DNA from: a virus
Length of the DNA: 22,067 nucleotides
Reading direction: 5' to 3' (one strand)
IMG/VR virus record: IMGVR_UViG_3300021335_000104
Location: 1-22,067 of that record
Below are positions 2,941 to 16,146 of the stretch, one piece after another (within the stretch, counting starts at the first letter, position 1; every line of letters starts with the position of its first letter). The translations under genes were made by a program, and so were the position numbers. The notes under the pieces were generated by a model. That model searched no databases and was not told the DNA's origin. It saw nothing but the letters and a program-made list of their open reading frames with translations.

Positions 2941-3397
2941 TGGACAAGTTCCCTCCTGTTGTGACAGTGAGAGTAACACCTGATGCTACGGCTACTGGGC
3001 CAGATGCTAGTGCGTTCTCTGTTGCGTCAATGGTTACGTTTGTATTCAGCGTTTGCTCATGCACCCTAAAGATGTCACCAGCAGCAGCCGCTGGGCCGTT
3101 AGTGCCACGCTCACCTTTGTATCTGCCACCACCTACCGCAGTGCTTAAATCAACAGCAGTGAAGATAAGGACTTCAAGTAAATCGTTTAGTGTAGCACCT
3201 GTTGTTAGAACTACATCTGAACCATTGGTAGCTGTAAAGTCTGTACCGTCTATTAGCTTAACACCGTTGAGATATACATCGACAAAACCAGCAGTGTAGC
3301 CTGACGTATTGAACGTAGTCTGAGAAGCTGTAGCTGTGTAATTGTGTCTAGCTTGGGTACTCTGGGGTACAGGTATATTGCCTAAATATCCAGCCAT
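2933..3397 (-). CDS. Small fibre protein with T7-fibre-like beta module
   Basis: A 154-residue protein whose ATG shares one base with the previous stop (TAATG), with GGAGG upstream. Residues 15-80 (ARHNYTATASQTTFNT, then FVDVYLNGVKLIDGTDF and ATLNDLLEVL) match in order the N-terminal beta module of the 311-residue fibre gene, which has VHYTATASQTAFTI, VDVYVNDVQK and LTLNDKVTI. Residues 92-107 are Gly/Ala-rich and may be a flexible linker. The C-terminal 45 residues (TLNTNVTIDATENALASGP ... GGNLSIV) resemble a short beta segment common in marine phage fibre proteins. It is probably a virion attachment or fibre component whose N-terminal module docks it; docking is inference. Confidence 0.8.
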   Translation of the reverse strand: MAGYLGNIPVPQSTQARHNYTATASQTTFNTSGYTAGFVDVYLNGVKLIDGTDFTATNGSDVVLTTGATLNDLLEVLIFTAVDLSTAVGGGRYKGERGTNGPAAAAGDIFRVHEQTLNTNVTIDATENALASGPVAVASGVTLTVTTGGNLSIV

Positions 3398-4689
3398 TAC
3401 TCTGCCTCCAATGCCGTTACTCTCGTTATGAGATCAGCTATCTGTGTTGCTTGGGTTGTGTTTTGAGTTTCTAGTGTTTCTACTTTAGTTTCTAATGCGT
3501 CATTTTTTGCTGACAGTTCTTGTATAGCATTAACTAAAACAGCAACCATGTTGCTATAACCAATTTCGCTTGGTATATCTTCTCCATTTTCGTCTTGCCA
3601 ATATTCAACATATTCAGTCATTCCTATGTCATGAAAGTCTTCAGCAATAAAACCAGCCCTTTGTTTTTGATTTGGCTCATCATTATAAACAAAATACTTG
3701 GGTTGCATTTGTAAAACTTCAGCAAGACCTTTATCGTAATCAACAATATCATGCTTAAATCTTCTAGATGAAGATGTTACAAAAAATTGACCACCACCGC
3801 TTGATGACCAGTGTAGATTAGCTGTTCCACCAACAGCCATAGTCGGGACGAATAAATTACCATTTGAATTTATTTTCAAACGTGCCGTTGATGATGTTGT
3901 TAGAGCAAGCTGATCGTTTGAATGATTGTAATCAATACCGCCAGCAAATCGACCATTTCCACTTGTTGCATCTGCAAAATATAACGCACCATATGTGTCA
4001 GAGTTACTATAAACTGTATATACCCCTGCCTGACCTGATGCACCTGTGCCAATAGTTAAAGATGAATTGCCAACCATATTACCTGCGACAGTGTTTCCAA
4101 TTCCTACCATACCATCGCTGTCGATACGCATACGTTCATTATCACCAGCAGTATAAAACTCTAACTGTTGACTAGATGTTGATGTACCTATTCTAGCTCT
4201 ATCTGTATTAGTTTCGTAATCAAACCGAAGCATAGCATCGCCAGTGCCACCATTATTAATAATTAGAGTTCCGTCATTTGCACCAGAGCCACCAGTTCCA
4301 CCAACTCTTGCACTTGTTGCTCCAGTTTGCGTGACATCTAAAGCATGACTTGGGTCATTAGTTAAAATACCTACTCGTTGCTGAGATGTAATCCTCATAG
4401 CCTCAGTTGGACTAGCACCATCAGAACCGTCGTTAGTGCGAAAGATTAAGTCACCCTTCTCATCGTCAGCCGTACCGTCATGGCTACCTTGAATTTCAGC
4501 TAGTGTACTTTCCTCACCGCCAGACTGTTGACCTTTGAAGATAACCTTACCTTCACGCCCACCATCAGTGTCTTCGTGCGTTGTGTTGACTATAGTAACT
4601 TCTGGCGTAGTGTCAGTAGCTGTTACGTCTTGGACGTTAGCAACCGTAGCACTAATAGTTCCAGCCCTTGCTCCTATGTATCCACCCAT
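3397..4689 (-). CDS. Tail fibre/spike with C-terminal peptidase S74 intramolecular chaperone
   Basis: A 430-residue protein. Residues 1-300 are Gly/Ser/Thr-rich and repetitive (AMRITSQQRVGI at 98-109 and ERMRIDSDGMVGIG at 185-198 are two copies of a fibre beta repeat). From about 305 it carries the S74 endosialidase-type chaperone: SSRRFKHDI with Ser307 and Lys312 at the spacing of the known Ser-Lys dyad, YFVYND, QRAGFIAEDF and IGYSNMVAVLVNAIQEL. It ends in a coiled coil (about 391-430). In this family the C-terminal domain trimerises the fibre and then cuts itself off just before the Ser, leaving the mature trimer on the virion. GGAG lies before the ATG at 4689, directly after the previous stop. 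The N-terminal MGGYIG resembles MAGYLG of the next gene. Confidence 0.88.
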   Translation of the reverse strand: MGGYIGARAGTISATVANVQDVTATDTTPEVTIVNTTHEDTDGGREGKVIFKGQQSGGEESTLAEIQGSHDGTADDEKGDLIFRTNDGSDGASPTEAMRITSQQRVGILTNDPSHALDVTQTGATSARVGGTGGSGANDGTLIINNGGTGDAMLRFDYETNTDRARIGTSTSSQQLEFYTAGDNERMRIDSDGMVGIGNTVAGNMVGNSSLTIGTGASGQAGVYTVYSNSDTYGALYFADATSGNGRFAGGIDYNHSNDQLALTTSSTARLKINSNGNLFVPTMAVGGTANLHWSSSGGGQFFVTSSSRRFKHDIVDYDKGLAEVLQMQPKYFVYNDEPNQKQRAGFIAEDFHDIGMTEYVEYWQDENGEDIPSEIGYSNMVAVLVNAIQELSAKNDALETKVETLETQNTTQATQIADLITRVTALEAE

Positions 4690-6049: not shown

Positions 6050-9000
6050 TTACTGCGCCCACATTCTTGTAATTGCATTCATGTCGTCTTTCCAAAACCA
6101 CATTCGAGCAAATGGTAAGTTGCGAGCAAAGTTCTTTGCACCTTCTCCATACTCACCACTTACAAACTGTGCAGCACCGCCAAGAAGATCTAAAGATATA
6201 GAGGCTCCAGCGCCAGCCATATTAGCAGTTGCATCCAATCCAATTATACCTGTACTTTCTTGTAGTTTCTGTTCTAAAAAACTAGGTTTTTGTGGAAACT
6301 TAGGAGCAATAAAACCATTTGTAATATTAGGTCCACCAAGAGCAAGTGATGTATGCAAGGTCTGATAAAACAAATCACTATACAAAGCAGTAATACCACT
6401 AGCATCCCATGATCGAGCAAATCTATCTTGTGCTGACATTTCATCCCAAGCAAACTCTGCACCAGATATTGAATATCTCATTTGCGTTGATAAATAGCCA
6501 AGACCAAGCATTGTTGTCATGCCTAACGCTCTATTCTTTAACTGACCATGAGCCATAGCACCAACCATTTTGTTTACATTAGCTAATGTGTAGCTATAAA
6601 ACTGAAATGGCAAAGCTAGGAACCCATTTTCTATTCTTGAATAACCCTTAAACATCTTATCTTCTGTGTAACCAAAACGCTTTGCAATATGATGCGGAAC
6701 AAATACAACACCATCGTTTATTATTGGTCTATCTGCTGGAGTTGCTGCAAGAATAGTATTTAATATTCCAGAGTTTAATGCAGATCTAAATGTATCAACA
6801 ACATCTTCTGCATCTTTTTCTGCATTCCTCATTTTTTTGTCTGCTGCAAGCTCAATGCCAAACTTTTTTTCGTTCTTCATATAAGCAAACGCTAGATCAT
6901 CAATTCTTTTTTCATAGTTAGGAAGTCTTTCACCTTCATTCATTTTAAATTTAGTATGGTGAAGTTCATGCAAAGTAACAAAACGAACATAATCATCAAA
7001 TGATTTTAACTCACTAGCTTTTTCTATTTTTACTAAAGCGTGATAATATTGTGTTTCAGATATAACACCTTCAGCTAATGCTTGAACAAGATTTGCTTTT
7101 CTTTCTTCTTTTGCTACTTTTCCTTTTTGCTCAAAAGCATCATAGTATGATTTCATATTTCTGCGATTTAAATAAATTTGATGAGTGCCATCAGAAAGCT
7201 CTACAGCAATACCCATTATGCTATTTGACTTACCTAGATCTTTCCAAACCGCATCAACTTCTTTTTGATTAGTAACAATTCTATCTACGTCAAACTCATT
7301 TTTAAAACGATTAAGAAGTTCTCTTTCATTCATTTTAAATATTGGTTTATCAGAAATCTTATAAGTTTTTCTAACTTCAGCAGTTACTTTTTTAAGATCA
7401 AGCTTACCCCATTGTTCTGTATTAGCTAAATACAAACCATTATTTGTTCTTTCCCAAGAAGACTCAGAAATTTGTTTTGCTTTCTTTTCATCAATTCCAT
7501 ATCGAGCAAGCCACTGTTTATCAAAAGCAGTTGCTTTTTTTTCGGTAAGTTTTATTGACCTATCTATAATTGTATGCGCTCGAGCAATACCATCAAGCAT
7601 TTTACTTAACTGTGTTAATGGGCCAAGACCATTTAATGTATAAAAAGCGTTTCTAGCTTTATTCCAAAACTCATTTGCATCAACATTATTAGCCATATCG
7701 TCAACTAATCGAGCAAACGCACTACCTTTTAAAATATCAATAGCTTCACCGCTAAGACGAACATCCTTTGAAGCCATCTTTAAAGTTTCTCTATCAAGCA
7801 AAGAAGAAATAGTTTTGATCATTGTTTGACCATCATGCTCCATAAGAACACGACCAAACTCAGGAACAGCAGCAATCCAACCAGAACCCATATAGTTAGT
7901 AGCAGCCGCTTCTTTCATAATGTAAGCAGTTCTTTGATTTAATGCAGATGGGTTTCTAAGAACAGCACCAGAAATACGATCATACATAAGATTAAAGTCT
8001 CTCATGTGTTTATTTATTTCTGTATCTGATAAGCCTCTTTTTATTGCATCCCTTCTAAGATGAAAGTTTACATCATCTAATTCCTGACCGTTAAATAGTT
8101 TTTTAAATTCTATTCTTGGAGCAACCCTAGCTGTATAAGTTTTCATTATAGCAATAGGATCTTGCATAATAAAATCCCAAACTAATTCATTTGGAATATC
8201 TAACTTGCGATGTCTAAAATGCTTAGATCTACCATATCCATAAGCAATACTTGAGTCACTAGTTGGATCTGAATCATTAAGAATATTATCAACAGTTTGT
8301 TTTGCTCTTTGCCTAATATCATCTGCATCAGGACTAAACTTTCTCTGCACCCACTTACCATTTTCAAAACGCCAAACAGTAGGATTGTTAGTGTACCATC
8401 TTGCAATAATACTTTCTAACTCATTGCGTCTATTTTTAACTACGGTAACATCCCAAAATCTAGGAAGAAAATTATCAGTAAAAGTTTGTTCCGTATCGCT
8501 AAAGTTTTTTAACTCTTGCTCTGCTATTTCTTTTCTATTTTTTAAACGACCTGTGTATTCTATTAGCTCCTGTCTTAATTTAGGATTGCTAGAAGCTCTA
8601 AGTATTTGGTCTTCAAGATCAGGAATAGTTCTATTAAAATAATTTATTGAATCTTGAATTGATTTTTTAGTTCCTATTAAACCAACGCTTTTTAGTTCGC
8701 CTTCTGCTTTTTTAAAAAAGCTATCAATAACACCAATAGCTTGTTTTTCAATATCACTTAGTTCTTCTTCTTTAAGAGTTCTTTTTCTATTAATACCTCG
8801 AAGCCAAGAGCCATAACTATCATCTCTTCGAGTAACGGATCTGTAAGCTGTAACAACATCAATATCTAAAACAGAAGTATCCATTAAACCCATATCATCT
8901 CTAAACAATTTAATAAGATCATCATGAGCCTTTACCCAAAGGCCATTCTTAGCAGCAGCCCTTTGATGCACAGATAACGGACTAGCAAAGCCAAGAGTTG

Positions 9001-10051
9001 TTGCAATATAATTAAGGCCAGAGTCACCGCCAAGTTTAACCATTGCCTGTTTCATAGCACCAGTAGCAGTTTCTGATTGAATAACTCTTTTAAATGGAGT
9101 GCTTACAAATTTATAAAAAGCACTGTCGGTAAACCTATTGTTAGCAATAGACCAAAGTTTTTCTGGAGTATATCCTTCAGCTACTAACTCTCTAATACCA
9201 GCTTCTCGTCTATGAGAAGATAATGAATTTTCTACTTCTCTAAACTCAGATTCTTTACCTGTTGTTTTACCAGCTTTCATTTCTATTTCTAGCTGGTCTC
9301 TTTTTTTAGTAAGCTGTCCTATTGTTGATTTTAAGGTTTCAATCTTAATATTTTCATGTGGCCTTACAGCATTAGAAAGATCTGACAAATCGTCAGCACT
9401 TAACTCAGAAGCGTGTTCAATCATTCGAACAGATCTAGCAAAGTCTGTTAAATCTTCTTGAGCTTTTCTTAGTGATTTAGCTCTAGCCGTAAGAGGAATA
9501 GATATTGCGCCACCAAACGCTGCGCCAAATAAAGTAGCCCCCACAATATTATACATACTTTCCGCTGCTGTTTGCACAGGATCATTAGGCTGTATAAGTG
9601 TAGCTTCTACGCCAGCTTGTATCATTCCAACGCCAGCACCAACTCTTAATGCACTTCTACCAATACCAACACTAGGGCCACCTAAAGGTAATGCTACTAA
9701 ATTAAGAGGATCAAATAAACCAGCGCCAAGTAAAGCAGTGAAAGAAGAGTCAGCTAATACTTGCCTTCTTGATATTGATTCATCAATCCCTCTTTTAAGA
9801 AATGACATATGCTGAGAATTTGTTGCATGACGTAAATGCATAGCAAACAAACCGTGACTGCCCAAATCTTCAAAAGGATTATAGCCCTGTTCTCTTTCAT
9901 TACCAAATTGATTATGCGCTCTAATAGATTCTATAATAGGATCATAAGTATAACCTAATGATGCTTTTAATGTTTGACCAAATGTAGGTTTAACAAACTC
10001 TCTTCTTGGGGAAAAACCACTAAAATCAACTGTAAGAGGATTAGTTACCAT
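6050..10051 (-). CDS. Internal (ejected) virion protein, gp16 position, with zinc-metallopeptidase motif
   Basis: A 1333-residue protein, close to T7 gp16 (1318), last of the three internal protein genes and directly before the fibre gene. The ATG at 10051 overlaps the previous gene by 11 bases. Residues 103-187 form a long hydrophobic Gly/Ala-rich stretch that could insert into membrane, and about 236-285 are coiled coil. I see no lytic transglycosylase motif in the N-terminus, unlike T7 gp16. Near the C-terminus, VTLHELHHTKF gives HELHH at 1028-1032, followed by YEKRIDDLAFAYM with Glu1047. This resembles an HExxH + E metallopeptidase of the ImmA/IrrE or minigluzincin type. A second amphipathic segment (about 1150-1215, FQFYSYTLANVNKMVGAMAHG) precedes the end. 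In T7-like phages this class is ejected into the cell envelope to build the DNA channel. Peptidase activity is inference. Confidence 0.82.
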   Translation of the reverse strand: MVTNPLTVDFSGFSPRREFVKPTFGQTLKASLGYTYDPIIESIRAHNQFGNEREQGYNPFEDLGSHGLFAMHLRHATNSQHMSFLKRGIDESISRRQVLADSSFTALLGAGLFDPLNLVALPLGGPSVGIGRSALRVGAGVGMIQAGVEATLIQPNDPVQTAAESMYNIVGATLFGAAFGGAISIPLTARAKSLRKAQEDLTDFARSVRMIEHASELSADDLSDLSNAVRPHENIKIETLKSTIGQLTKKRDQLEIEMKAGKTTGKESEFREVENSLSSHRREAGIRELVAEGYTPEKLWSIANNRFTDSAFYKFVSTPFKRVIQSETATGAMKQAMVKLGGDSGLNYIATTLGFASPLSVHQRAAAKNGLWVKAHDDLIKLFRDDMGLMDTSVLDIDVVTAYRSVTRRDDSYGSWLRGINRKRTLKEEELSDIEKQAIGVIDSFFKKAEGELKSVGLIGTKKSIQDSINYFNRTIPDLEDQILRASSNPKLRQELIEYTGRLKNRKEIAEQELKNFSDTEQTFTDNFLPRFWDVTVVKNRRNELESIIARWYTNNPTVWRFENGKWVQRKFSPDADDIRQRAKQTVDNILNDSDPTSDSSIAYGYGRSKHFRHRKLDIPNELVWDFIMQDPIAIMKTYTARVAPRIEFKKLFNGQELDDVNFHLRRDAIKRGLSDTEINKHMRDFNLMYDRISGAVLRNPSALNQRTAYIMKEAAATNYMGSGWIAAVPEFGRVLMEHDGQTMIKTISSLLDRETLKMASKDVRLSGEAIDILKGSAFARLVDDMANNVDANEFWNKARNAFYTLNGLGPLTQLSKMLDGIARAHTIIDRSIKLTEKKATAFDKQWLARYGIDEKKAKQISESSWERTNNGLYLANTEQWGKLDLKKVTAEVRKTYKISDKPIFKMNERELLNRFKNEFDVDRIVTNQKEVDAVWKDLGKSNSIMGIAVELSDGTHQIYLNRRNMKSYYDAFEQKGKVAKEERKANLVQALAEGVISETQYYHALVKIEKASELKSFDDYVRFVTLHELHHTKFKMNEGERLPNYEKRIDDLAFAYMKNEKKFGIELAADKKMRNAEKDAEDVVDTFRSALNSGILNTILAATPADRPIINDGVVFVPHHIAKRFGYTEDKMFKGYSRIENGFLALPFQFYSYTLANVNKMVGAMAHGQLKNRALGMTTMLGLGYLSTQMRYSISGAEFAWDEMSAQDRFARSWDASGITALYSDLFYQTLHTSLALGGPNITNGFIAPKFPQKPSFLEQKLQESTGIIGLDATANMAGAGASISLDLLGGAAQFVSGEYGEGAKNFARNLPFARMWFWKDDMNAITRMWAQ

Positions 10052-13000
10052 CTGTAGGATCTTTTACATTATTAATAAAACTAAGAGTTTCATTGATAGC
10101 TATACCTAGATTAGTAATTTCTGGGACATCTAAAGCATCAGTTTTTAAATCTGTAATTTCTTTTATTCTTCCTTTTATTTTATAGAGTACCTCAGCCATT
10201 TGAGCCTCACTAGTAAAAGATTTATTATTAAAGTAAAGCTTATCATCATCATCAAAGTCTTGAAGAAGATCAGGGTTGCTTTGCTCAAGTTTTGCAAAAA
10301 CATCAACAATAGAATTACCAAACTTGTTAATTTGAATTTGTCTTTGTGGTGAACCAGCAGGAAATTTATCTGAGATTAAATCAATAGTTTCAGTTTTTTG
10401 AGCTTCTGATATAGCTTCTGTTGTTAAAGCTAACTCCTGTTTTCTAACTAATTCTAAAAATGGCTGCTCTCTTGTTCCAAGATAAATAGCTGTTGGAACT
10501 TTATTCCCCTCTCCATCTTGAACAAACATTTGATAAGCTTCATCATCTTTGTTTACAACACTATAAACCTGACCTTTAGTTTGCGTGTCTTTTCCAAGAG
10601 GTCTTAAATAAAACTCTTCATTCTTCCAGTCAATTTTATTAACAGTTTTAAACTCACCACCAAACATATCAAACCCTATACCTTCAGCTTCTGGCTCTCC
10701 AAACTCATTATACTCAATAGCATTAGCAGCAAGCTCATTTCGAATATAACTAACAAACAAATCTCTATTTCCTTGAGTAGTTAGATCAAGAGAGTGTAAA
10801 GTTTTTTCAGTAAGAACTTCTTTTACAAGATCATCTTTTTTTAATCTAGCATCAAAGAAATTTGTAAGAGCATTTTCAGCTTTAAAACTAATATTTTCTG
10901 GATCAATTTTACTTTGAGCATAATGAGATCTAATAACAGATGATGCCATTATAAGAAGGTCACGATCAACGCCAACTTCATTACTAAAATTTTCTAAAAC
11001 ATACTCTTCTATGCTATTTTTATTTAGCTTGCTTAATAGCTCTTTTTCAAATGCTGGCTCATTTGATATGGCAGATATTTGTTTCATTTTATTTGAAAGA
11101 GCAGCATCTGTTTCTTCAATACTCATTGCTGGTAATCTTCTGTATTCAGCTAAAAGAAGATCTAAAGTAGCAGCAGTATCTGGATCTAGTATTTTATCAA
11201 GACCAGCATTATTAAAAATCTGACCTTGTTTTAAATTAATCTTATTTTTTACTGCATCGTATATATTAAGAACACGACTAGGACTAAAGTTTCCAGTTAC
11301 AAATCCACCTTGATTAGCTAAGCCATCAAAAACAGCAAGAACATCTGTGGGCAAAACACTAGATTGTCTAAGCATAACAAGAAGCTTTTGTTCTTCTTCA
11401 CCATTAATATCAAAGTTTGAATTAATAATAAAATCTCTTAAATCATTAGCTCCTAACTTTACAGCTACATCACTAAAAATATCATTTGCTAAATCACGAT
11501 TCTCTTTAGTATTATCATATGGACCACTTAGTATATCTACAAAAAACTTCTTTCTTGCGGCTACTTCTTTTTCATAAGTTAAAGCATCTGATGTTCTGCT
11601 AGCAAATGTAGATGCCTCAACCCTAGCAGCATTATCTCCAAGTAATATTCTAGCTTCATCTATAGCTTTCTTTTCACTATCAGTTAAAGTGTAAGCTTCT
11701 TTATAACTGTCTCTTTCAACACCATTTATTGCATAGTGATCAATAGAAGCTAACTGAACTTCTGAATTTATATTATTGTAAACACCAGAAAGTTTTGACT
11801 TACCAAATCTAAAATCAAAATTATCTTGCAATGAAGATCTCTGAGTAACATCTAGTTCTGTTTTTTTAATACTATTTTGTACTTTTATTCTTTCCTCTTC
11901 ATTAGAAAAATCTAAAGTTTTAATTTGTTTACTAATATCAATTGAGTTTTGAAGTTCTCTTTTTGATTGAAAGAAGTTCTGTTCGTCTTTAAAAGAAGTT
12001 GCTTTGTCTGAAAGCTTTCCTAAAAATCCAAACTGAGGTAGCCCTTGATCAAGCCTTACAAACTGTTGAGCATATTGCGCTAACTTAGGATTGTTTCTTT
12101 CCAAAAGATCTAAAGCTTTTTCATTAGTTGGATCTGTTATATATGATTGCAATCTATTAAGATCATCTAAACTATTAGCATGATTAGATACTATTGCATT
12201 TCCTAAACTATCAGCAAAGTTTTCTGCTCTAACATTAAACCTATTTATTTGAGCATCAAAAAGCTCAGCATTAAAACCCTCATTAAGCTCATTTATTGCA
12301 GTATTGTTTGTTGCTTCATTATCTTGAAATAATTTTCCTATAGCTTCAGAAACACTTGCAGAACTACCATTTGCCCCATCTCTTGATTTTTGAACTATTT
12401 CTGAATTATTTAATTGTTGTTGCTGTAAATAAAGTGTTTGTAATGTACCTTCAAACACCTCTCTATTATCAGCAGCTTTTATTAAAGGTAATGCAAACTC
12501 TTTTATAGTTGCGGAAATGGTAGCATCATCACTAGCGTTTTCTAATAGCTGCCTTACATTCTCAAACTTTTCACCAGATATGTATGATGGATTATTAGTT
12601 GTTATAGCAACATTAAGGAATTGAAGATCCTTTCTAGTTAAATCTGTATATTTAAAAAAGAACTCTAATGTACCTTTTGCTTTAGCTTGCTCTCTCTCAA
12701 TGCTTCTACCTAATCGCTCACCGTCTAATATAAATCCAGCAGCTACATCAATATCATTTTTTGTTTGAATTTCTTCTTCAATTTTTGTTGCAAGGTCTAC
12801 ATCGCCAACTCCAAGAGCATTTTGAATACCTAAAGCGGCTTGTTGGTTTTGAAATAAATTATGAATAGACATATCTTTATCATGCCTATTCTGAGCTTCA
12901 GCAACTAATCTACGATAACCGTCACTAGCAAGTGATTTTCCACGCTGATCAATAAACCTTTTGAATACAGAACTGCCTTCAACATTTATCATTTCAGCAG

Positions 13001-13400
13001 TGTAATCACTTAATGCTTTTTTATAACCTTCTGGACTTCTTCTAAATTTATTTGCAAATTCTTTAGCTTTATCAGTAAGCTCTAATTCTATTTCGGTTTC
13101 AAACCTATTAAGAAGTGCTTGCTCTCTTGCCTTTGATGCAATTCGCCCAAGACTTCTAGGTGCTTCAAAAACAGTAGGAAGGCCATCTTCTCCAAGAGTT
13201 GTTATTTCAGATGAAGAGTATTGCTCAACAGATTTAATTCCTCTTTCTCTAGCATCTTCAGCAGCACGTTTATAAAACTGTGCGTTTAAAGCATTAGCCC
13301 CTTCAGCAACAGCCTCACCCATTATAACACCAGCCCTCGATGATCGAGCAACGCCAATAGGCCCAACTTTAAATTGTCTTGTTTCTTTTTTAACAGCCAT
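10041..13400 (-). CDS. Internal (ejected) virion protein, gp15 position
   Basis: A 1119-residue protein between the gp14-like and gp16-position genes. The ATG at 13400 is 8 bases after the previous stop with a weak AGG upstream. The sequence is almost entirely predicted helix, rich in Lys, Glu, Asn and Leu, with no signal peptide, no long membrane segment and no catalytic motif that I recognise. The N-terminus (KVGPIGVARSSRAG, then ALNAQFYKRAAEDARERG) resembles the start of other large phage internal proteins. It is much longer than T7 gp15 (747), so part may be lineage-specific. By position and composition it should form, with its neighbours, the internal core that is ejected to make a trans-envelope channel. 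That role is inferred from context, not from a conserved domain seen here. Confidence 0.75.
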   Translation of the reverse strand: MAVKKETRQFKVGPIGVARSSRAGVIMGEAVAEGANALNAQFYKRAAEDARERGIKSVEQYSSSEITTLGEDGLPTVFEAPRSLGRIASKAREQALLNRFETEIELELTDKAKEFANKFRRSPEGYKKALSDYTAEMINVEGSSVFKRFIDQRGKSLASDGYRRLVAEAQNRHDKDMSIHNLFQNQQAALGIQNALGVGDVDLATKIEEEIQTKNDIDVAAGFILDGERLGRSIEREQAKAKGTLEFFFKYTDLTRKDLQFLNVAITTNNPSYISGEKFENVRQLLENASDDATISATIKEFALPLIKAADNREVFEGTLQTLYLQQQQLNNSEIVQKSRDGANGSSASVSEAIGKLFQDNEATNNTAINELNEGFNAELFDAQINRFNVRAENFADSLGNAIVSNHANSLDDLNRLQSYITDPTNEKALDLLERNNPKLAQYAQQFVRLDQGLPQFGFLGKLSDKATSFKDEQNFFQSKRELQNSIDISKQIKTLDFSNEEERIKVQNSIKKTELDVTQRSSLQDNFDFRFGKSKLSGVYNNINSEVQLASIDHYAINGVERDSYKEAYTLTDSEKKAIDEARILLGDNAARVEASTFASRTSDALTYEKEVAARKKFFVDILSGPYDNTKENRDLANDIFSDVAVKLGANDLRDFIINSNFDINGEEEQKLLVMLRQSSVLPTDVLAVFDGLANQGGFVTGNFSPSRVLNIYDAVKNKINLKQGQIFNNAGLDKILDPDTAATLDLLLAEYRRLPAMSIEETDAALSNKMKQISAISNEPAFEKELLSKLNKNSIEEYVLENFSNEVGVDRDLLIMASSVIRSHYAQSKIDPENISFKAENALTNFFDARLKKDDLVKEVLTEKTLHSLDLTTQGNRDLFVSYIRNELAANAIEYNEFGEPEAEGIGFDMFGGEFKTVNKIDWKNEEFYLRPLGKDTQTKGQVYSVVNKDDEAYQMFVQDGEGNKVPTAIYLGTREQPFLELVRKQELALTTEAISEAQKTETIDLISDKFPAGSPQRQIQINKFGNSIVDVFAKLEQSNPDLLQDFDDDDKLYFNNKSFTSEAQMAEVLYKIKGRIKEITDLKTDALDVPEITNLGIAINETLSFINNVKDPTDGN

Positions 13401-13408
13401 TGTTTTAC

Positions 13409-13843
13409 CTACATAGTCTCTTGAAATTCCATCATACCACCCATCAATGTAGTAAATGCCTTAACTTGTGCAGCTTTTTCTCTAGCTCGACCTTCAACTC
13501 TTATTGTTGTAGCTTGCTGTTGAAGCTTAGCTTGCTCAAACATACCCATAAGATCTGATCTAGAAGTATCTTGTAATGCTATTTCTCTTTGCCTACTTAA
13601 AAACGCTTTAACAGAAGCATCATCTCTACCTCTAAAAGCAGAGATGTTTGCAGAAAGATTATTGCGATATAACTCTAATCTATCATTGTGTCTTTGTAAT
13701 GCTGAAACCTTACTGCGTTTTTTTTCAGTTTCAGTAGCAAAGGCATCTAGTTCAGCAGCCTTACGCTGCGCTCTGCCAGCACTAGCCATAGCACCAGCTT
13801 GTATAACTTTGCTTCCAAAAGCTAATAGAGTAAATGGATCCAT
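13409..13843 (-). CDS. Internal virion protein, gp14-like
   Basis: A 144-residue protein that starts in a TAATG overlap with the tail-tube B stop, with a strong GGAGGT nine bases upstream. A short hydrophobic N-terminus (FTLLAFGSKVIQAGAMASAG) is followed by a long amphipathic helix rich in Ala, Arg and Gln (RAQRKAAELDAFATETEKKR, then SRQREIALQDTSRSDLMGMF). This layout is that of T7 gp14, which is ejected and forms the outer-membrane part of the DNA channel. It is shorter than T7 gp14 (196). The identification rests on gene order, composition and N-terminal hydrophobicity. Confidence 0.75.
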   Translation of the reverse strand: MDPFTLLAFGSKVIQAGAMASAGRAQRKAAELDAFATETEKKRSKVSALQRHNDRLELYRNNLSANISAFRGRDDASVKAFLSRQREIALQDTSRSDLMGMFEQAKLQQQATTIRVEGRAREKAAQVKAFTTLMGGMMEFQETM

Positions 13844-16146
13844 TAAATAATTACCTCCGTAATAAATCCATTAACTTGCATAGATAAGGGATCATTCTGT
13901 TCTATTGTTACTTGTGGATCTCTACTGTATCCAAGCAAGCGCACCTCTTCTTTACCAGTAACTCTAACACTTCCTATAGGTACTGATTTAGTATTTACCT
14001 TTATAGATCTGGTATCTTTCATATCTACAACAACATTTGTAATGCCTCGAAGAGATCCTGTTAATGGGCCAGCAGCACCAGAAGCATCTATTGGATTAGA
14101 TATTATTTTAGAATCAAACTTCTTTCCAATATAAACATCATCATAACATCCAACACCTATACCTGTTAATTCTAAAAAATCAGGAAAATTAAGCTTACCA
14201 TTTGCTAATGTAAACTCACCGAGATAATCTAACTTGCCTGCTCCACCTACAGAACTTGTATTACTTTGCTCACCTATAACATCAAGAACATCACCATTTG
14301 CATAAAGACTAGTGCCAAGAGTAATCTCAACTTTTGTTGGATTAAGTGCTGAGTCTACAGCAAAGTTTACTTTTGTATAAGAATCTAAGCCAACATCAAA
14401 ACCATATTCTTCAGTTCTAAATTCACAAAGAACTAGATTATTTTTAAAATCATAAAGATTAACAAACAATCTATCATCAATAGCAACACAAGAATCAAAT
14501 CTACCATTGGTAGTAAATGAAGTCCAAGATGCTCTTTTCTCTGCTCTGTTAGATGTAAATACAGCAGCATTACCATCTTCCATAACCATCATTGCATAAG
14601 AGTCTGCTTGTTTAAAACCACTATGAGCGACAGCAATCCATTGAGGTTGATCAATTAAATGAGAAGCAATTGTTGATATTGCAGTAGACGCATAAGCATC
14701 TTCAGCATCTGTAAATAAATACTCTCTAATTATTCTACCACTTGCTTGAGCAAATATAGTTGCACCATCTATTAATGCTGGTTGAGCAAATGAAGATCCA
14801 TAAGGAGTTTGCTCACGGATCTGAGCGTTGGTCGGTGTAATACCCTGATTAAGAAAGGTAGGAACATAAAGCTCACCAGTACCAGCAAACACTTGAAGGT
14901 CACGACTAGATACTAAATGACGTATTTCATGTACATCACCAGTTGCAGCAGTTAATTGAATAGCTTCATTATCTTGTCCAGTACCAACATCAAAGTTAAA
15001 GTACTCACCTATTTGACTCATAAAAATAGTATCTGGCTCTGCAATAGTTCCAGCAAATACTAATCTGTTTTCATGAAATGCTACGGCTGCTGGATAACCT
15101 CTTTTAGCTGACCAAGCTTGTTCATCAAAGTCTGTTGTTGGCGCATGAGTTGTTACAAACCCATTTCCACCACCATCTTCAGAAGATGTTGCAGTACCAT
15201 CTGCTATAATTTCATAGCGATTTTCATCAAGAACAGCTTGTATTGCTCTTGTTCCATTTAATTGAGTTCCTGTTATACCACCAACAGCATCCATATCGGA
15301 AAAAACAAGTGAGTCACCAACGTTATGACCATGATTAATTTGAGTAACTTCTACTCTAGTGCTTCCATTTCTTGTTCTTATTGGATTTGCAATGCTGAGA
15401 TTAAGTTTTAATGAATCTAAAATATTGGCAGTTGCCGAAGTTGTAGACTGAACACTTGTTATTTGTATTTCATTGCCACCATATCTTAAAATAACGCCAA
15501 CGTGCAAACCTGTTGTGTCAAAGTAAGCAGAGCTTGTTTGAATATTTATTCCATTTCCTGTTGTGTTATTTGGATTTAAAGTAACACCTACACCATGAAA
15601 CTTAGAGTATGGTTGATAAGTTTTCTTACCATCTGCTCGATCATCAAATGTATAAGTGCTAACATTAAATGCAGTAAGACTTGTTCTTGTTAATACTCTA
15701 GGCGCAAACAATGGATGACAGATAAACATAACATCGCCCATTTGTGCAGTAGTAATTTGATTTAAGTAAAGTCTATTAAATGGAAGTGTTGCACTACTAG
15801 CATCAGCAGTTAAAGTTGCAACTAATGTCACTGTATCAGCATCAACGACTCTAAAGCATCTTACTTTTTCATGCTCAATAGAAATAATGTATTGTTCATT
15901 ATTATCAAAAACAAATGGAAACAAACGAGATTGATATTTCTGAGAAGATGAAGAACTATAATCAATACCGTAATCATAATAGCGTTTTGTACCTTGACGT
16001 TTCCTTGCACTACCTTCGGCAGTAACAATCATGTTCTGAACTTTTTGTGCTGAGCTTGTGTAGATAGCTGTATCAGTTCTCATAATTAGAGAATCGCTAA
16101 CCTCACCAAACTGAAAACTGTTTTGTGGAACGCGAATTTTTTGCAC
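13843..16146 (-). CDS. Tail tubular protein B (T7 gp12-like nozzle)
   Basis: A 767-residue protein beginning at GTG; the upstream stop and this start share one base (TAGTG), and AAGG lies about nine bases upstream. The N-terminus (VPQNSFQFGEVSDSLIMRTD, then KVQNMIVTAEGSARKRQGTK) is typical of the gp12 family, as is FHENRLVFAGTIAEPDTIFM ... GEYFNF in the middle. The C-terminus has beta-strand sequence ending DPLSMQVNGFITEVII. Length is close to T7 gp12 (794). Six copies of this family form the tail nozzle below the gatekeeper ring. It follows the gp11-like gene as in T7, and no enzymatic motif is visible. Confidence 0.9.
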   Translation of the reverse strand: MQKIRVPQNSFQFGEVSDSLIMRTDTAIYTSSAQKVQNMIVTAEGSARKRQGTKRYYDYGIDYSSSSSQKYQSRLFPFVFDNNEQYIISIEHEKVRCFRVVDADTVTLVATLTADASSATLPFNRLYLNQITTAQMGDVMFICHPLFAPRVLTRTSLTAFNVSTYTFDDRADGKKTYQPYSKFHGVGVTLNPNNTTGNGINIQTSSAYFDTTGLHVGVILRYGGNEIQITSVQSTTSATANILDSLKLNLSIANPIRTRNGSTRVEVTQINHGHNVGDSLVFSDMDAVGGITGTQLNGTRAIQAVLDENRYEIIADGTATSSEDGGGNGFVTTHAPTTDFDEQAWSAKRGYPAAVAFHENRLVFAGTIAEPDTIFMSQIGEYFNFDVGTGQDNEAIQLTAATGDVHEIRHLVSSRDLQVFAGTGELYVPTFLNQGITPTNAQIREQTPYGSSFAQPALIDGATIFAQASGRIIREYLFTDAEDAYASTAISTIASHLIDQPQWIAVAHSGFKQADSYAMMVMEDGNAAVFTSNRAEKRASWTSFTTNGRFDSCVAIDDRLFVNLYDFKNNLVLCEFRTEEYGFDVGLDSYTKVNFAVDSALNPTKVEITLGTSLYANGDVLDVIGEQSNTSSVGGAGKLDYLGEFTLANGKLNFPDFLELTGIGVGCYDDVYIGKKFDSKIISNPIDASGAAGPLTGSLRGITNVVVDMKDTRSIKVNTKSVPIGSVRVTGKEEVRLLGYSRDPQVTIEQNDPLSMQVNGFITEVII

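Follow-up and report, generated by a model that had tools for sequence, protein, structure and literature searches.

The common view of ejection proteins is that of conduits and motors for DNA entry that carry, at most, a murein hydrolase. The locus analysed here raises the question of why such a protein would contain what looks like a zinc-metallopeptidase active site, as an earlier note on this DNA had proposed, and what a peptidase in this place would cut. The window, i.e. the whole stretch of DNA that was analysed, is a 22,067-base virus record, which is probably a fragment.

Gene order and the ejection-protein scaffold

On its minus strand, to which all bracketed feature coordinates below refer, the window encodes in this order portal (PF12236), capsid (PF19821), tail tube and nozzle proteins, the gp14-, gp15- and gp16-position proteins, and tail-fibre genes. 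The gp16-position ORF encodes an internal virion (ejection) protein of 1333 aa (6050..10051), which constitutes the scaffold bearing the putative peptidase cassette and is homologous to 'putative internal virion protein 1' of Vibrio phage CKB-S2. Residues 526-889 of this scaffold match the profile phrog_16310 (E 4.6e-16), the function of which is unknown in PHROGs. The tail nozzle-type protein (13843..16146) is well supported by phrog_376 (E 1.1e-96), and the gp14-position protein of 144 aa (13409..13843) shows a weak match to the internal virion protein family phrog_418 (E 0.0066). The gp15-position protein of 1119 aa (10041..13400) was assigned by its position; it has no match in Pfam or PHROGs, and no muralytic domain was found in it. 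One of the tail-fibre proteins, at window positions 3397-4689, carries a Peptidase_S74 intramolecular chaperone at its C-terminus (PF13884, E 8.2e-10).

As in T7 and P22, the gp16-position protein occupies its place in a gp14-gp15-gp16 order and contains hydrophobic segments. It is encoded by the large third gene of an internal-protein set downstream of the nozzle (144, 1119 and 1333 aa), which is a T7 gp16-like trait, and its length resembles the approximately 1300 aa of the T7 protein. A Kyte-Doolittle scan placed the hydrophobic segments at residues 106-124 and 169-187 (9491..9736). Unlike T7 gp16, the window protein lacks an N-terminal transglycosylase and contains an internal zincin-like cassette instead. 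The earlier note had not seen a lytic transglycosylase in it, in agreement with Pfam and PHROGs, which gave no SLT or lytic transglycosylase match in the window's ejection proteins; SLT was also absent from the 11 related records searched. P22 gp16 likewise has no lytic transglycosylase, and ejection proteins are known to be mosaic in the domains they contain (PMC8954989).

The HExxH motif and its conservation

The HELHH observation was confirmed. The motif occupies residues 1028-1032 (6956..6970), is predicted to provide two zinc-binding histidines and the general-base glutamate, and is the sole HExxH in the 1333-aa ORF, in which about 0.03 would be expected from composition. As the stretch YEKRIDDLAFAYM begins at residue 1046, its glutamate is Glu1047 (6911..6913), located 15 residues after the motif as claimed before; it is predicted to be the third zinc ligand, on the next helix, and is followed by Ala1054 (6890..6892) within an Exx[IV][ND]xxA motif. 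The segment HQIYLNRRN at residues 957-965 (7157..7183), previously likened to the strand before the active site of ImmA/IrrE-type and minigluzincin peptidases, corresponds in the AlphaFold model to an edge strand (residues 957-961) that precedes the helix of the active site.

Homologues of the window protein were identified at 60-94% identity, and further ones at 32-45% via alignments. In an alignment of 58 homologous domains, most of which are only about 18-30% identical to that of the window, His1028, Glu1029, His1032, Glu1047 and Ala1054 are the only invariant columns among 94 well-filled ones (mean column entropy 1.98 bits). The four residues singled out in the earlier note are thus all retained, and Ile959 and Asn962 are among the more conserved columns. 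The middle letters of the motif vary freely (HELHH, HEIMH, HEINH, HEIAH, HEFQH, HEKAH and others). One homologue retrieval used a pattern containing HExxH and yielded a biased subset; in five retrievals with patterns outside the motif, every domain-bearing protein that reaches the motif keeps HExxH. The exceptions come from a retrieval seeded with Pelagibacter phage Hodr, which yielded a lineage that has lost the histidines. As a negative control, we used the HEIRH at residue 406 of the nozzle protein, which reads NTIRH, NEIRH, NSIRH, NEIRY and similar in most homologues and can, owing to this lack of conservation, be attributed to chance.

Predicted fold and relationship to known peptidase families

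Structure prediction gave a confident model. AlphaFold was supplied with window residues 884-1083 and 58 sequences and returned a model with a pLDDT of 86.6 and a pTM of 0.81, containing strands at fragment positions 41-43, 64-68 and 74-78 (the last corresponding to residues 957-961) and an HExxH helix at 135-149 that bears H145, E146 and H149. Glu1047 is located in a helix at fragment positions 160-199. The HExxH thus terminates one helix, and the glutamate sits on the following one, beyond a strand pair, which is a zincin-like arrangement. Furthermore, the compact domain of homologue L011 was modelled with similar confidence (pLDDT 86.5, pTM 0.83) and likewise combines strands with one helix that bears HExxH and another that bears the glutamate. 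The predicted elements fit a beta-sheet and two-helix core, with no significant match to a solved zincin. A metallopeptidase fold and site at this position is very likely, and the earlier reading of a metallopeptidase within an ejected protein is supported by the invariant catalytic residues together with the zincin-like model. Of the two outcomes that the note had named as refuting, loss of the HExxH residues in close homologues was not observed, and the layout of the model speaks against His and Glu residues that do not cluster.

Neither the window protein nor its domain matched a peptidase in Pfam, PHROGs, NCBIfam or PADLOC, and sequence searches of PDB chains gave no match to the domain. 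A DUF5975 match (E 0.053; 0.0043 in one homologue) fell below the cut-off and was disregarded. Foldseek with the window model found nothing significant in PDB or BFVD, the two best, non-significant BFVD leads being large proteins of about 1300 aa (A0A6J5N5Q0 and A0A516LUJ6). With the compact domain, the top PDB lead was selecase (4qhj; E 0.53, probability 0.47, TM 0.33-0.39), followed by 4qhh and the zinc peptidase 3lmc, all of them non-significant. The compact domain has a single match among annotated phages, Hodr (E 5e-4), and the window domain and the domains found at a second site (see below) match none. Scanning of genome contigs with both cassette types identified no cellular or prophage relatives, and no resemblance to murein peptidase families emerged.

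Both families suggested in the earlier note were recovered as leads below significance. As modelled, the domain shares the small gluzincin topology of minigluzincins such as the selecase of M. jannaschii (4qhj), which ranked best among the PDB leads for the compact domain; the domain has no sequence match to any PDB chain, and the fold lead is not significant. With ImmA/IrrE-type proteins (Peptidase_M78, PF06114), it shares the HExxH and, further downstream, a motif of the E..(A/I)N..A type. Nine records were searched with Peptidase_M78, and one of them gave a match of 12.3 bits versus a cut-off of 22, located on the HExxH segment of a homologue; the window protein gave no match, and hhalign joined the M78 alignment only over 11 residues around HExxH. 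The M78 proteins compared are small or annotated as DNA-binding and are not virion proteins.

Injected phage proteins with zincin domains have been described before, as part of the phage polyvalent proteins (Iyer et al. 2017), and the N4 virion RNA polymerase with its HExxH-bearing C1 domain is the best case (PMC5512222, PMC12633501). Like these polyvalent-protein zincins, the window domain has an HExxH helix followed by a Glu helix within a large virion protein whose injection is predicted; fusions to lysozyme-like domains occur, and only some relatives possess the domain. Unlike them, it resides in a gp16-position ejection protein rather than an RNA polymerase or an ArdC/ParB protein, and the same cassette is found at three alternative sites. 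Six related records were searched with the polyvalent-protein metallopeptidase family PF18818 and none matched at E <= 10, although the control itself matched only weakly, and hhalign joined the N4 C1 alignment only over the 7 columns of the HExxH stretch. LPD38 as the scaffold family gave no match either, an uninformative result since its controls were silent as well. Since motif and layout fit and the fold and profile searches remained non-significant, the domain is predicted to be zincin-like by motif, spacing and layout, and it was placed in none of the families tested.

A mobile cassette at three sites

In the window, the metallopeptidase cassette comprises residues ~886-1083 (6803..7396) and is located at site 1, between the conserved scaffold residues ~881 and ~1088. 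In the homologues L013, L014, L015, L017 and L018, site 1 is empty and the counterparts of these two residues join directly or nearly so, which identifies the domain as an insert. Site 2 is empty in the window (residues 560-568; 8348..8374) and filled in L029, L072-L074, L076-L078 and L135-L158. In BLAST searches with the window protein, regions matching residues 1-560 and 568-896 flank a domain that matches window residues 904-1061 with 22-28% identity (E down to 6e-15), and site 1 is vacant in these carriers. Site 3, at approximately residue 260-470 behind the N-terminal hydrophobic region, is occupied in L129/L176-L181 and in Hodr and its relatives. All three sites are C-terminal to the hydrophobic segments. 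No domain was detected in L075 and L067, which are close scaffold relatives of the site-2 phages, in the L033-L058 group, or in the Vibrio, Klebsiella and Escherichia phage relatives. Beyond what the earlier note had described, the domain is a discrete, mobile and swappable insert. In L068, site 1 (residues ~975-1094) is taken up by about 118 aa rich in proline and charged residues, with no HExxH among them.

The cassette has also been exchanged between lineages. The domain tree splits into two types (support 100/100): type A, to which the window clade, L024 and every site-2 domain belong, and type B, with the remaining site-1 domains and those of site 3. In the scaffold tree, calculated with the domain removed, the window clade joins the type-B carriers L007, L011 and L012 (100/100) and L024 joins the type-B carrier L061 (100/100), so that mapping cassette type on this tree needs three changes, each forced by well-supported branches. 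A single scaffold clade of the window clade and L024 was rejected (p-AU 1.45e-8), a value that is descriptive since this group was named after the first tree had been viewed; the supported branches carry the weight. The flanks immediately outside the cassette track the scaffold and not the domain. Given this conflict between trees, the cassette at site 1 has been replaced no fewer than two times, or else the exchange ran the opposite way.

Nested inserts and a lineage without zinc ligands

Several homologues contain inserts between HExxH and the glutamate, approximately 235 aa long in L010 and L132 (residues ~1004-1255 and ~909-1155, respectively) and approximately 110-130 aa long in L007, L104, L117 and L130. 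The insert that follows HEIMH in L117 and L130 is different from that of L010 and L132, is about 120 aa long and reads GRWFSDDLEEAQWY...LLYVDVP; L007 and L104 carry a third kind in the same gap. The L117 insert has no match in Pfam, PHROGs or phages, and that of L010 none in Pfam, PHROGs, PDB or phage records. By eye, the L010/L132 insert (FVHFTRKQN...GNVMYFTQD) resembles an ADP-ribosyltransferase, a likeness that is visual only because the libraries give no match. The gap between the zinc-ligand helices is an insertion hot spot, and variable inserts have been described at the equivalent place in polyvalent-protein zincins (PMC5512222).

In the Hodr lineage (L013, L182-L190 and L192; ~52-99% identical), HExxH is replaced by KE[VI]..[RK], and the general-base glutamate and a downstream [FY]EN motif are retained. 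The domain corresponds to residues ~257-371 in L013. Going by the alignments, this lineage keeps a conserved domain that lacks the zinc-binding histidines, which implies that the fold has, or can take on, a non-catalytic role. No relative with an intact version of the domain turned up among deposited isolates. The record of L013 (OQ414635.1) is titled EXVC031P Hodr and carries EXVC032PBaldr locus tags, possibly due to a mix-up of labels at deposition.

Possible functions of the cassette

A motif arising by chance in a helical structural protein is extremely improbable. The nozzle protein does hold such a chance HEIRH, but the ejection-protein motif is invariant in about 80 proteins, its spacing motif is conserved, the fold prediction is confident and the insertion borders are defined; the conservation test refutes this explanation. 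A structural or regulatory module, in which the fold is kept mainly for its shape or for metal-stabilised folding and catalysis is secondary, would account for the ten non-identical Hodr-lineage ORFs that retain the domain without zinc-binding histidines. Elsewhere, however, the glutamate and the three ligands are invariant while the rest drifts, including in lineages retrieved without the motif, and metal binding alone does not demand Glu1029; we regard this role as unlikely in general. Still less probable is a peptidoglycan peptidase that substitutes for the T7 gp16 lytic transglycosylase in crossing the cell wall. T7 gp16 carries a transglycosylase (PMC8954989), and neither SLT nor lysozyme domains are present in the window's ejection proteins, with SLT missing from the related records as well. 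Yet L119-L121 have the peptidase in a protein that also starts with an endolysin-like segment, which indicates that the peptidase there is no stand-in for a murein hydrolase and makes a murein role unlikely as the general function. A replacement murein hydrolase was rejected as the leading account, and the lack of similarity to murein peptidases and the position of the sites, on the cytoplasmic side by T7 analogy, also argue against it. The endolysin-like region of L119 spans residues 1-170 (phrog_873, E 2.4e-8), with a similar region seen by eye in L121, and L067 has an N-terminal Phage_lysozyme domain (residues 1-160; PF00959, E 2.5e-5).

Self-processing is the strongest rival, yet doubtful as well. 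In this case, the domain would cut the ejection protein itself or its gp14-/gp15-like partners, at head maturation or after ejection, fitting the core or releasing domains. It would account for the conservation of the catalytic residues too, and some homologues bear extra domains on the same polypeptide. Both self-processing and host targeting have been proposed for related zincins, the former e.g. for P1 DdrB, whose processing precedes packaging; the virion RNA polymerase of N4, on the other hand, has an HExxH domain yet enters the head unprocessed (PMC5512222). In addition, the cassette would have to work from three positions in the chain, and its absence from L075 and L067 and its inactivation in the Hodr lineage mean that processing would have to be dispensable. 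A movable, exchangeable and losable cassette favours action in trans over cutting of a fixed site in its own chain. Being independent of position, exchangeable and divergent except for its catalytic residues, the domain would fit a trans-acting effector.

We therefore favour, with slightly better than even confidence, an injected zincin cassette that cuts a host protein. Residues ~886-1083 would form a compact zincin-type metallopeptidase in which, as we infer from the motif, zinc is held by His1028, His1032 and Glu1047 and water is activated by Glu1029; an active protease in the window phage is probable. The self-contained cassette is inserted at one of three sites of the ejection protein and exchanged among the marine podovirus lineages of this group. 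It would be packaged in the head within the internal protein and exit with it at infection. Its virion-gene context and the presence of a zincin-like domain in a large multidomain protein are observed, and delivery to the host together with the DNA is likely by analogy to T7 gp16 (PMC8954989). By the same analogy, a position C-terminal to the hydrophobic segments would correspond to the cytoplasm-facing side; the domain may refold on the side that follows these segments and would probably reach the inner membrane or cytoplasm. A host protein might be cut there, most plausibly one that stands in the way of DNA entry or of the early stages of infection, and we consider action in trans on a host protein an even call.

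Implications for podovirus ejection proteins

New features described here are the family itself, its occurrence in ejection proteins at the gp16 position, the three sites that it occupies, the tree conflict that reveals exchange, and an inactivated lineage. We found no report of such a cassette in the open full-text literature searched, and the words protease and peptidase are absent from a review of ejection proteins (PMC8954989). Considering the cassette at three sites and in several lineages, together with a hot spot between HExxH and the glutamate that takes up unrelated domains, it is possible, and here tentatively proposed, that the gp16-type ejection protein serves as a swap platform for injected effectors. 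If so, phages could retune their injected content with no need to rebuild the DNA conduit.

With the cassette, it can be tested directly if effectors are delivered by podovirus ejection proteins, and site 3 provides a natural pair of active and inactive versions (L177-L181-type and Hodr-type) for asking what purpose the cut would serve. An exchanged cassette, catalytically intact in most lineages and inactive in a single one, points to a step of protein cutting in the first moments of marine-phage infection, and suggests an injected weapon or processing tool within a protein more familiar as a passive channel for DNA.
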